This document shows positions 35,254-63,415 of a stretch of DNA of 64,000 bases, piece after piece. Each line of letters begins with the position of its first letter. The first letter of the stretch is position 1. The translations under genes and the position numbers were made by a program. This DNA is from Salinisphaera japonica YTM-1 (GTDB taxonomy: Bacteria; Pseudomonadota; Gammaproteobacteria; Nevskiales; Salinisphaeraceae). A model generated the notes under the pieces. It had not been told where the DNA came from. It did no database searches and saw only the letters and a program-made list of their open reading frames with translations. Location: NCBI RefSeq assembly GCF_003788585.1, contig NZ_AYKG01000023.1, positions 1 through 64,000 of the forward strand. Reading direction: 5' to 3'.

Positions 35254-35327
35254 TGGGGAATCGTCTAGTGGTAGGACTGCGGACTCTGACTCCGCCAGCG
35301 GGGGTTCGAATCCCTCTTCCCCAGCCA
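35254..35327 (+). tRNA. tRNA-Gln (CTG)
   Basis: A complete 74-base cloverleaf with encoded CCA. The acceptor TGGGGAA pairs with TTCCCCA, the anticodon stem GCGGA/TCCGC encloses CTCTGAC (anticodon CTG, reads CAG), and the T loop is GGTTCGAATCC. Its last 19 bases are copied twice downstream in a tandem array. Confidence 0.95.
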
Positions 35328-35692
35328 TAAGGAAGGCCCGCCTCGAGCGGGCCTTTTTTATGGCTGGCGTAGCGGCCCTGATGAGAATCCCGTGGTTCGA
35401 AAGGGCGCCGTAGGCGCCCGCCGACAGTCGAACTTTGTTCGACTGGGCCCGAAGGGCCGAGCAGTCGGCCTATGGCCGAATGCGAGCAATCCCTCTTCCC
35501 CAGCCATAAGGAAGGCCCGCCTCGAGCGGGCCTTTTTTATGGCTGGCGTAGCGGACCTGATGAGCACCCCGTGGTTCGATGGGCGAGCAAGCTCGCCCAG
35601 ACAGTCGAGCGTTAAGCTCGACTGGGCCCGAAGGGCCGAGCAGTCGGCCTAAGGCCGAATGCGAGCAATCCCTCTTCCCCATCCATAAAAAG
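35309..35692 (+). repeat. Tandem array of about 180-bp units headed by the tRNA-Gln 3' end
   Basis: AATCCCTCTTCCCCAGCCA, the 3' part of tRNA-Gln, occurs at 35309, 35489 and (with a changed base, then truncated) 35667, so the periods are 180 and 178 bases. Each full unit continues with the terminator hairpin and then hairpins at 35403-35419, 35425-35445, 35446-35458 and 35466-35480 (unit 1 numbering). Between units two stems change on both sides at once: GGGCGCC/GGCGCCC becomes GGGCGAG/CTCGCCC, and CAGTCGAA/TTCGACTG becomes CAGTCGAG/CTCGACTG. That points to selection on RNA or DNA structure. Confidence 0.92.
35333..35359 (+). terminator. Terminator of tRNA-Gln (first copy)
   Basis: AAGGCCCGC, loop CTCGA and GCGGGCCTT are followed by TTTT. 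The same hairpin is repeated 180 bases later, at about 35513-35539. Confidence 0.9.
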
Positions 35693-52468: not shown

Positions 52469-53944
52469 TTAGAAGTGGACGTACATCGTCTTGTTCTTCA
52501 CATAGGCCTCCAGACCGTACTTGCCGTCTTCGCCGCCGATACCGCTGTTGCGATAGCCCTTGTGAAAGCCCTGTACCGACTCGCCGCCGCCGCGATTGAC
52601 ATAGATCTCGCCGAAATCCAGATCGTGCACGGTGTTCATCAAGCGTTTGACGTCGTTGGTGAACAAATAGGCCGACAGGCCGTACTCTGAAACATTGGCA
52701 TAGTCGATGGCCTGTTCGAACGAATCGACCTTCATGATCGGCACGACCGGGCCGAAGATCTCTTCCTGCATGATCTCCATATCGTTTTGCACGCCCGTGA
52801 GTACGGTCGGCGCATAGTAGAAGCCTTCGTCGTACTCGCCGCCGGTCAACCGCTGGCCGCCGGTTTCCAGGGTGGCGCCGGCCTTGATCGCGCGCTGGAC
52901 CATGTCATGAACCTTGTCCAGCTCGCCGCTGGAGATCTTGGGGCCCAGGTCCACATCTTCGTGCTTGAGCGGATCGCCGACCTTGAGCTCATCGACACGC
53001 TGTTTGAAGCGATCAAGGAAGGTATCGTAGATGCCGGCGTGCACATACATGCGCTCGTTACAGGTACACACCTGGCCGTTATTGGAGAAACGCGAGACGA
53101 TCGCGGCTTCCACGGCGCGCTCCATGTCAGCATCGTCCATGACGATGAAGGGCGCCTTGCCGCCCAGCTCCAGGCGCACGATCTTCAGGTGCGGGGCTGC
53201 GGCCTTGGCGATTTCACGCCCGCCGCGCACGCTGCCGGTCATGGAGACAAGCTGTGTGATGTTGCTGGTCACCAGATGGTTGCCAACATCCTGGCCGTGG
53301 CCGTTGACCAGGTTGATCACCCCGTCAGGAATACCCGCCTGACGGGCCAGCTCGACCACTTCCATCGCGGTCAGCGGCGTCTCCTCGGACGGCTTCAGCA
53401 CGATCGTATTGCCGGCAGCCAGGGCAGGGCCCAGCTTGCGTCCGATCAGTGCGGCCGGGAAGTTCCAGGCCGTGATGCCGGCGACCACGCCGTGGGGCAC
53501 CTTCTGGATCCAGATCTGCTCATTGGGATCATCCGCGGGCACGATATCGCCCTCGATTCGGCGCGTGTTTTCTGCCGCGAAACGGATCAGATCCGCACAC
53601 ATGCCGACATCCGCGCGGGCCTCGGTCAGCGGCTTGCCCTGTTCGGCCGTGATCAGATTGGCCAGACGCTCGGTGTCGTCGTGCAACAGATCGACCAGTT
53701 TGAACAACAGATCGGCCCGATGCTTGGCCGTGGTACGGCGCCAGGACTCAAAGGCGCGATCGGCAGCCTCGAGCGCGTCCTGTGCATCGTTGGACGTCGA
53801 CAGATTCAAACGACCCACCACGGCGCCGGTGGCCGGGTTAGTCACATCCAGCGATTCGCCGTGGCCGTCGGTCCACTGGCCGTCGATGAACTGTCGATAG
53901 ACAGAAACGCCGTCCTGCTCGTGTTTCATGGAATGTTGCGACAT
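52469..53944 (-). CDS. aldA: NAD-dependent aldehyde dehydrogenase, AldA-like (lactaldehyde/glycolaldehyde)
   Basis: A 491-aa class-3-type ALDH. Catalytic residues are Asn161 (TAWNFP), Lys184 (LKPSEETPL), Glu259 (LELGGKAPF) and Cys293 (NGQVCTCNERMYV). The QVCTC-ER context is typical of E. coli AldA, which oxidises lactaldehyde and glycolaldehyde, so that name is likely, though the substrate is unproven. GGGAG precedes the ATG at 53944. Single gene, minus strand, next to tRNA-Arg. Confidence 0.8.
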   Translation of the reverse strand: MSQHSMKHEQDGVSVYRQFIDGQWTDGHGESLDVTNPATGAVVGRLNLSTSNDAQDALEAADRAFESWRRTTAKHRADLLFKLVDLLHDDTERLANLITAEQGKPLTEARADVGMCADLIRFAAENTRRIEGDIVPADDPNEQIWIQKVPHGVVAGITAWNFPAALIGRKLGPALAAGNTIVLKPSEETPLTAMEVVELARQAGIPDGVINLVNGHGQDVGNHLVTSNITQLVSMTGSVRGGREIAKAAAPHLKIVRLELGGKAPFIVMDDADMERAVEAAIVSRFSNNGQVCTCNERMYVHAGIYDTFLDRFKQRVDELKVGDPLKHEDVDLGPKISSGELDKVHDMVQRAIKAGATLETGGQRLTGGEYDEGFYYAPTVLTGVQNDMEIMQEEIFGPVVPIMKVDSFEQAIDYANVSEYGLSAYLFTNDVKRLMNTVHDLDFGEIYVNRGGGESVQGFHKGYRNSGIGGEDGKYGLEAYVKNKTMYVHF

Positions 53945-54104: not shown

Positions 54105-54180
54105 GCGCTCGTAGCTCAGGGGATAGAGCAGCGGTCTTCTAAACCGCTGGTCGCTGGTTCGAATCCAGCCGGGCGCGCCA
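54105..54180 (+). tRNA. tRNA-Arg (TCT)
   Basis: A 76-base cloverleaf with encoded CCA. The acceptor GCGCTCG pairs with CGGGCGC (one T-G pair), the anticodon stem GCGGT/ACCGC encloses CTTCTAA (anticodon TCT, reads AGA), and the T arm is CTGGTTCGAATCCAG. Its 3' end is repeated four more times downstream. Confidence 0.95.
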
Positions 54181-55049
54181 TTCATGTAGGCCGTGCGCAG
54201 CGCGGCCTACATGAATGGCATATCGACTAGATATTCGAACCAGCGACAATAAAAATGATGGTTCGACGGCTGCGTGAAGCGCAGACGAACGGGACGGCAC
54301 CAGCCGTACCGGCCCCGAAGGGGTGAGCCGGCACGGCCGGCGAATAATCCAGCCGGGCGCGCCATTCATGTAGGCCGTGCGCAGCGCGGCCTACATGAAT
54401 GGCATATCGACTAGACATTCGAACCAGCGACAATAAAAATGATGGTTCGACGGCTGCGTGAAGCGCAGACGAACGGGACGGCACCAGCCGTACCGGCCCC
54501 GAAGGGGTGAGCCGGCACGGCCGGCGAATAATCCAGCCGGGCGCGCCATTCATGTAGGCCGTGCGCAGCGCGGCCTACATGAATGGCATATCGACTAGAC
54601 ATTCGAACCAGCGACAATAAAAATGATGGTTCGACGGCTGCGCGAAGCGCAGACGAACGGGACGGCTCAGCCGTACCGGCCCCGAAGGGGTGAGTCGGCG
54701 CAGCCGGCGAATAATCCAGCCGGGCGCGCCATTCATGTAGGCCGTGCGCAGCGCGGCCTACATGAATGGCATATCGACTAGATATTCGAACCAGCGGCAA
54801 TAAAAATGATGGTTCGACGGCTGCGTGAAGCGCAGACGAACGGGACGGCACCAGCCGTACCGGCCTCGAAGGGGTGAGCCGGCGCAGCCGGCGAATAATC
54901 CAGCCGGGCGCGCCATTCATGCAGGCCGTGCGCAGCGGCGCCTACATGAATGGCATATCGACTAGATATTCGAACCAGCGACATAAAAATAATGGTTCGA
55001 CGGCTGCGCGAAGCGCAGACGAACGGTACGGCACCAGCTGTACCGGCCC
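54162..55049 (+). repeat. Five-fold tandem array of about 184-bp units headed by the tRNA-Arg 3' end
   Basis: AATCCAGCCGGGCGCGCCA (the last 19 bases of tRNA-Arg) recurs at 54162, 54346, 54530, 54713 and 54897, so periods are 184, 184, 183 and 184 bases. Each unit continues with a 17-bp stem that starts in the tRNA GCCA (54177-54193 with 54203-54219). Then comes TTCGAACCAGCGA, an exact inverted copy of part of the tRNA T arm, which pairs with a following TGGTTCGA. A string of small hairpins follows, including GGCCCCGAAGGGG and GCCGGC-ACG-GCCGGC. The fifth unit diverges after about 55049. No T-run follows the 17-bp stem. Confidence 0.95.
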
Positions 55050-55152
55050 CGTCTCGGCCTGAATCGATCGCGCGGCATGCCATTCCTGCAGACCGACCCC
55101 GTCGCTTGCAGCCGCATAGGCCCCGGGTTCGGCCAAGAATCCACTGCAACGG

Positions 55153-63145: not shown

Positions 63146-63222
63146 GGAGCGGTAGTTCAGCTGGTTAGAATGCCGGCCTGTCACGCCGGAGGTCGCGGGT
63201 TCGAGTCCCGTCCGCTCCGCCA
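63146..63222 (+). tRNA. tRNA-Asp (GTC), copy 1
   Basis: A 77-base cloverleaf. GGAGCGG pairs with CCGCTCC; the anticodon stem CCGGC/GCCGG encloses CTGTCAC (anticodon GTC); CCA is encoded. It lies 14 bases after tRNA-Val, so the two are co-transcribed. The sequence is identical to copy 2. Confidence 0.96.
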
Positions 63223-63258
63223 CGGTCATCGCGTCGGGCACGCCCGACGGGCCGAACA

Positions 63259-63288
63259 AAGAGAGTGCTGAATCGGCACTCTCTTTTT
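63259..63288 (+). terminator. Terminator after tRNA-Asp copy 1
   Basis: AGAGAGTGC, a seven-base loop and GCACTCTCT are followed by TTTT. Confidence 0.88.
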
Positions 63289-63338
63289 ATTGAGCGATGC
63301 CGAAGCACTTGCGTTTCGGTCGGTCGCGACAAGAGTAC

Positions 63339-63415
63339 GGAGCGGTAGTTCAGCTGGTTAGAATGCCGGCCTGTCACGCCGGAGGTCGCGGGTTCGAGTC
63401 CCGTCCGCTCCGCCA
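63339..63415 (+). tRNA. tRNA-Asp (GTC), copy 2
   Basis: All 77 bases are identical to copy 1, 193 bases downstream. The sequence around it differs from that around copy 1, apart from the gene itself. A separate terminator follows, so it may have its own promoter, though none was clear. Confidence 0.96.

Follow-up and report, generated by a model that had tools for sequence, protein, structure and literature searches.

What is the tandem array that directly follows the tRNA-Arg(TCT) gene in the 64-kb stretch of DNA analysed here (the window), and why should its units carry pieces of that tRNA in both orientations? A first-pass annotation had read the locus as a five-fold array of units of about 184 bp. 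The last 19 bases of the tRNA, AATCCAGCCGGGCGCGCCA, occur free of mismatches at 54162 (the gene itself) and at each of the four copies listed in the table, precisely where that annotation placed them. The successive steps are 184, 184, 183 and 184 bp, and when two mismatches are allowed there is no further site in the window. Tandem Repeats Finder reports a repeat at 54162-55051 with a period of 184, 4.8 copies, 96% matches and a score of 1640. Together, the copy positions and this repeat call define four complete units and a truncated fifth without a terminal copy. The period and the number of units are thus as described, but the fifth unit contains only an antisense block and the first half of the core and lacks the tRNA 3′ copy.

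Table 1. Features of the two arrays in the window, and tRNA-like copies at other loci (given with their locus handles)
Feature	Position	Strand	Remarks
tRNA-Gln(CTG), carrier of second array	35254..35327	+	ARAGORN
TLR unit 1 behind tRNA-Gln(CTG)	35328..35506	+	core 35393-35493; tRNA 3′ copy 35488-35506
TLR unit 2 behind tRNA-Gln(CTG)	35507..35685	+	core 35572-35672; 3′ copy with one mismatch
tRNA-Arg(TCT), array carrier	54105..54180	+	ARAGORN; RF00005 69 bits
Trailer hairpin, unit 1	54177..54219	+	5′ strand takes in the tRNA GCCA end
TLR unit 1	54181..54364	+	R1 covariance model 101.3 bits
TLR unit 2	54365..54548	+	R1 101.3 bits; copy end
TLR unit 3 (183 bp)	54549..54731	+	R1 97.3 bits; copy end
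TLR unit 4	54732..54915	+	R1 100.5 bits; copy end
TLR unit 5, truncated	54916..55051	+	R1 48.2 bits; no tRNA 3′ copy
Antisense block, unit 1	54233..54247	+	complementary to tRNA 54150-54164; conserved in orthologs
Antisense block, later units	54417-54431, 54601-54615, 54784-54798 (1 mismatch), 54968-54982	+	
Core, unit 1	54259..54351	+	T-arm copy TGGTTCGA, hairpins P1-P4, GAATAATCCA
Cores, units 2-5	54443-54535, 54627-54718, 54810-54902, 54993-55051 (broken)	+	
tRNA 3′-end copies	54346..54364, 54530-54548, 54713-54731, 54897-54915	+	19/19 in four units
tRNA-like copies, some tandem	L218 1468-1568; L212 1547-1923; L198 1480-1568 (reverse strand); L292 1490-2005; L309 1518-1606		

Each unit is ordered as a spacer hairpin, the block ATTCGAACCAGCGAC, a short A-rich loop, TGGTTCGA, four hairpins, and GAATAATCCA with the remainder of the tRNA 3′ end. 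The first core begins 79 nt behind the tRNA, and TGGTTCGA is a copy of the 5′ half of its T arm. The 15-nt block ATTCGAACCAGCGAC is the exact complement of GTCGCTGGTTCGAAT, the T-arm 5′ half of the tRNA. It is present in all five units, with one mismatch in the fourth, bearing out the earlier observation of an inverted part of the T arm in each; at up to one mismatch, no site lies outside these units in the window. The chain of hairpins described in the units is likewise real by the measure of folding, with each of the units modelled folding better than its shuffles (z of −2.6 to −4.7). The trailer hairpin of unit 1 shows compensatory changes between species, and no T run follows it.

The 3′-end copies recall the tRNA-linked repeats (TLRs) of E. 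coli, which were first seen in 1978 by Egan and Landy and catalogued in 1999 by Rudd, and for which no function was known as of 2021 (PMC8144298). E. coli has 22 copies at ten loci, each repeating the last 18-19 bp of the gene upstream (PMC8144298). Four Arg units match their upstream gene at 19/19 positions, and the five Arg units and two Gln units of the window lie directly behind a tRNA gene, in the TLR range of one to five per locus. A covariance model, R1, was built from eight units of the same genome and contains no E. coli sequence. In a search space of 569 kb, with loci from 24 other, distant genomes, picked up through the marker gene clpP, included in the background, R1 matches all four rtT units of E. 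coli tyrTV (E of 2.4e-6 to 6e-5) and, outside its own genome, nothing else. The tyrTV repeats of K-12 also have the same order of parts as the Arg(TCT) units. The likeness to rtT that the first-pass annotation had put forward as a parallel is therefore true homology. A refined model, R2, matches further repeats in K-12, namely the proK units and those of serX (three), the lysT operon (five), the argVYZQ operon (three) and tyrTV (four), as well as the rrnB repeat known as RrB in the T1-T2 spacer (47 bits; L347 332-417). The 3′-end copy, the position and the R1 and R2 matches thus place the array among the TLRs, and its homology with rtT is well supported by sequence comparison. This kind of element is already known, and the Arg(TCT) array is a divergent member. 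The carrier is indeed a tRNA other than Tyr, but this is not unusual, as K-12 repeats also lie behind Lys, Arg, Ser, Pro and 5S genes. The units that R2 assigns at K-12 lysT, argVYZQ, serX and proK (L330, L332, L336, L337) have no counterpart among the RefSeq features there.

The Rfam model for rtT, RF00391 (gathering score 45 bits), finds no match in the window at gathering, none at the Arg(TCT) locus with E≤10 and none at the Arg loci with E≤0.05. It does pass for a Tyr array of the same genome (58.7 bits), and in K-12 it recognises the proK, lys and serX repeats. A conserved peptide resembling Tpr is not supported, as the reading frames shift between units of one array, being 23, 23, 39, 23 and 39 codons long with differing ends.

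Running a covariance model of the unit on relatives, as the first-pass annotation proposed, reveals R1 matches in 12 of 13 other genomes of the genus, one of them (G002) with a single match at 5.1e-5. About 100 of the 124 R1 matches are located behind a tRNA, with the first core 53-85 nt past the CCA and further cores in steps of ∼180. One positive genome, G008, is a single-contig assembly with the same layout, on which ground an assembly artefact was rejected, and orthologous arrays in most genomes of the genus refute neutral slippage or artefact as the whole story. Among 369 Gammaproteobacteria, R2 identifies units in 116 genomes (96 of 272 genera; E≤1e-3), whereas only 23 of these genomes give RF00391 a score above its cut-off. 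Outside this class, R2 also matches one family of the same phylum (f211). The carriers are tRNAs for Arg, Gln, Tyr, Ser, Glu, Asp, Thr, Pro and Lys. A few matches of R1 or R2 that lack a tRNA were left out as chance or unexplained (L183, L188, L187; L314, L316, L318-L320); at one of these, L187 1501-2042 (G027), R1 matches tandem elements with no tRNA upstream within the locus.

The window holds a second TLR array, overlooked in the first reading, at 35309-35688 behind tRNA-Gln(CTG). Its two units have a tRNA 3′-end copy with zero or one mismatch and a hairpin with a T run resembling an intrinsic terminator, and the core begins 66 nt behind the tRNA. Searching the same genome with one unit revealed three units behind tRNA-Arg(TCG) and fragments at Arg(CCG) and Arg(CCT). 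Scanning its tRNA genes gave the same three units, two behind Tyr(GTA) and one behind Arg(CCT); at Arg(CCG) and Arg(ACG), nothing survives but the antisense block with a broken core. One divergent unit follows tRNA-Val(GAC) (L121, C1:151005, reverse strand), where a 3′-end copy and an antisense stretch are evident. The core of this unit has no R2 match on the tRNA strand and only a 23.5-bit match on the opposite strand, and it is possibly a divergent type that keeps only the copy and the antisense. Elsewhere in the window, two identical tRNA-Asp genes (63146-63415) stand 193 bp apart with terminator-like hairpins between them and no TLR core. A tRNA-His(atg) call by ARAGORN at 53082-53172 (−) lies inside an aldehyde dehydrogenase-like reading frame, lacks RF00005 support and is probably false.

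The antisense block changes with the tRNA that carries it. In type 1, seen at most Arg, Pro, Ser(GCT) and Thr loci, up to 17 nt of the block are complementary to the 5′ half of the T arm together with bases of the variable loop. In type 2, seen at Gln, Tyr, Glu and many Ser loci, up to 15 nt are complementary to the 3′ half of the T stem together with the 3′ strand of the acceptor. When local complementarity to the own tRNA is summed over 97 loci, the total is 1255, versus 826 (sd 17) with tRNAs permuted, and none of 10,000 permutations reached it. Exact antisense of 13-17 nt is present at 32 of 37 Arg loci, and in the Arg type only 4-10 of these nucleotides are accounted for by the unit's own T-arm copy. 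An 8-nt extension of the match agrees with the own tRNA at 119 of 136 positions versus 83 when permuted (17 distinct T arms), although this test is biased, since only loci with a match of 5 nt or more entered it; the unbiased comparison is the 97-locus permutation. Across 11 Arg(TCT) orthologs, there is no change at the first 13 positions of the block, while the adjoining spacer has diverged with compensatory hairpin changes, and the block persists in G011 and G014 despite a decayed core. We found no earlier report of antisense to the own tRNA in open-licence papers. Within that literature, the 13-17-nt antisense, the covarying core at the T-loop insertion site and the tRNA-like copies (see below) are new here.

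What such a block might do to its precursor was modelled as equilibrium folding of the RNA, without co-transcriptional order, modified bases or proteins. In the predicted minimum free energy structure of the Arg(TCT) precursor (−142.9 kcal/mol), the T arm is held by the block and the tRNA's 5′ acceptor strand by the 3′ copy, and a fold with native acceptor and T stem is predicted to be 4.8 kcal/mol costlier. With the own unit attached, the modelled probability of a native T stem has a median of 0.001 over 97 precursors; the median is 0.73 if the unit comes from another isotype and 0.78 if the tRNA stands without any unit. Shuffling the antisense block is predicted to restore this probability to 0.43, while it stays near zero when the core or the copy is shuffled. 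A transcript reaching only through the block would suffice for loss of the T stem. The block is thus predicted to outcompete the native T stem. The idea that the 3′ copy rescues the fold of the tRNA was rejected: with the copy removed or shuffled, the T-stem probability falls no further, and so the copy gives no rescue at equilibrium.

The reading that best explains both the presence of the antisense block and why it follows the identity of the tRNA, which we favour tentatively and somewhat short of even odds, is that each unit might be a cis-acting anti-tRNA RNA element in the 3′ trailer. When a transcript extends past the tRNA without timely cleavage, the block would capture the T arm of the precursor, taking its 5′ half in the Arg type and the 3′ half plus the acceptor strand in the Gln/Tyr type. 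The 3′-end copy could displace the native partner of the 5′ acceptor strand, and with the block on the T arm and the copy on the acceptor strand the precursor would be held in a non-tRNA fold. Early termination, by the terminator-like hairpin present at some tRNAs, or fast 3′ cleavage would let the tRNA fold, and we infer that these events would decide whether the block is made at all. The outcome would be a tRNA-specific brake on read-through or on unprocessed precursor. A broader version is rather more doubtful, namely that TLRs in general are widespread, isotype-specific, riboswitch-like trailers of this anti-tRNA kind, in which the block, co-varying with its tRNA, would flip the precursor from the cloverleaf to another fold and back, and the 3′-end copy would, in that other fold, replace the native 3′ strand.

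Several observations count against an anti-tRNA trailer. The tRNA is made first and perhaps may never open. Terminator-like hairpins precede the core at 16 of 16 Gln(CTG), seven of eight Arg(ACG) and six of seven Arg(CCG) loci (compared with one of 11 for Arg(TCT) and none of 16 Tyr or 11 Gln(TTG) loci), such that few transcripts would arrive at those units. Arrays are also dispensable, since G001 and G016, of the same genus or family, have no unit behind tRNA-Arg(TCT). The rrnB repeat lies behind 5S rRNA, shows no 5S antisense evident by eye, and is of a kind reported to bind Hfq and CsrA (PMC8144298). Moreover, the conserved core is left without a clear job. Finally, part of the antisense match could be left over from the origin of the unit, though its conservation beside a diverged spacer would then be unexplained.

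The core is itself a strongly covarying structure. Among 112 aligned units, 28 of 34 core pairs have changed on both sides; cells with changes on both sides number 617 compared with 180 in shuffles, and 92.9% of cells are paired compared with 31-43% when partners are slid, a margin that is large even though an alignment fitted to the structure is favourably biased. Read on the tRNA strand, G.U pairs outnumber A.C pairs by 147 to 27, which indicates selection on the tRNA-sense strand. The covariation and the strand of the G.U pairs support a structured RNA on the tRNA strand, of the sort suggested in the first-pass annotation, and bear only indirectly on whether it would be transcribed and processed from the tRNA precursor. 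As aligned, the core is a five-way junction at the T-loop insertion position, closed by the T-stem copy and carrying hairpins P1-P4 with conserved GA/AA linkers; P1 of E. coli has adjacent G-A mismatches, which fits the published tandem GA motif of RtT (PMC7657543). These properties also suit a small RNA that is cut from the tRNA precursor and acts in trans on protein or other RNAs, in the manner of RrA/B/F with Hfq and CsrA. The K-12 tyrTV unit is annotated as the ncRNA rttR, with an end near the CCA of the copy, and RtT-family RNAs have been detected by RT-PCR in Actinobacillus (PMC4986893). Nonetheless, we regard a trans-acting RNA as unlikely: it leaves both the antisense and the copy of the own tRNA unexplained, tRNA-linked repeats stand at <0.01 for CsrA affinity (PMC8144298), and the starvation role once attributed to rtT was retracted and its phenotype traced to a neighbouring gene (PMC8144298).

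It is equally improbable, in our estimate, that the units are selfish or neutral DNA, in which a T-loop insertion once spread among tRNA genes and arrays grew by unequal recombination between 3′ copies. In five genomes (G006, G008, G010, G181 and G174), an intact gene for tRNA-Gln(TTG), Arg(CCG) or Arg(CCT) is preceded by one to three full tRNA-like copies. Such a copy has the 5′ part of the gene and, in the T loop, a core that separates GGTTCGA from AATCC; its 3′ acceptor strand is altered and without CCA. TLR units themselves are built like the 3′ part of their own tRNA with the five-way-junction RNA replacing the T loop, and we infer that each downstream unit derives from a copy of the tRNA in which the short antisense block took the place of the 5′ two thirds. 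Unit number per locus ranges from 0 to 5; under the anti-tRNA reading, too, units would be gained or lost by recombination between the 19-bp copies. Units are more alike within an array than between orthologs: the median distance between units is 0.09 inside an array, 0.30 from one ortholog to the next and 0.36 from one tRNA to another in a single genome. The tRNA-like copies, the varying unit number and the likeness within arrays favour neutral DNA, but for 57 of 87 units in the genus the nearest relative outside the own array is a unit of the same tRNA in another genome, which indicates vertical descent. As judged from these distances, TLR loci are inherited and their arrays homogenise. Furthermore, the covariation and the conserved antisense demand selection or an odd mutational process. 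Mobile DNA of phages or plasmids was rejected, as nucleotide searches with one unit gave no match in 50,697 phage records and plasmid matches confined to the tRNA.

The least probable alternative, if only slightly so, is a 3′-end module serving termination, processing or insulation, in which spacer hairpins, terminators and the compact core stop polymerase or protect the trailer while the copy supplies an end for CCA trimming, for although it is in keeping with the terminator-like hairpins ahead of the core at many loci, the spacer hairpin that pairs with the CCA end across species and a narrow distance from tRNA to core (mostly 71-84 nt for Arg and Tyr), it requires neither the own-tRNA antisense nor an exact 19-nt copy, and the Tyr and Gln(TTG) loci have no such terminator.

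If the block acts as the anti-tRNA reading predicts, many tRNA genes would have a built-in brake on their own folding, and this could be tested in E. coli. TLRs pass from an E. coli curiosity to a family that about one third of the sampled Gammaproteobacteria possess and that extends to one or more other classes of the phylum. Through the own-tRNA antisense, which on paper is strong enough to unfold the tRNA, these repeats of no known function gain a testable candidate role.

Among known systems, the 3′ETS-leuZ of E. coli would resemble the proposed trailer in its working only, as a tRNA 3′ trailer that regulates by base pairing; it pairs in trans with the small RNA RyhB and has neither 3′-end copies nor the core (PMC6191717). 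RrA, RrB and RrF lie between T1 and T2 of E. coli rrn operons and are related through the R2 match to the rrnB copy, but they sit behind 5S rRNA. Transcripts of such rRNA-linked TLRs arise through read-through and have been reported to bind both Hfq and CsrA in vitro (PMC8144298). RtT-family RNAs also occur near Asn and Lys tRNAs in Pasteurellaceae (PMC4986893). The rtT RNA of tyrTV (rttR, RF00391) has the same core, and the Tyr array of this genome falls within its family, whereas the Arg and Gln arrays of the window score below RF00391 and have no conserved Tpr frame. With the E. coli TLRs as a whole, the array shares an 18-19-nt copy of the tRNA 3′ end, a position behind a tRNA, tandem units of ∼180 bp and a homologous core. 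It differs from them in that all five Arg isoacceptor types in this genus bear units or remnants, and in that the Arg-type antisense block targets the 5′ half of the T arm.
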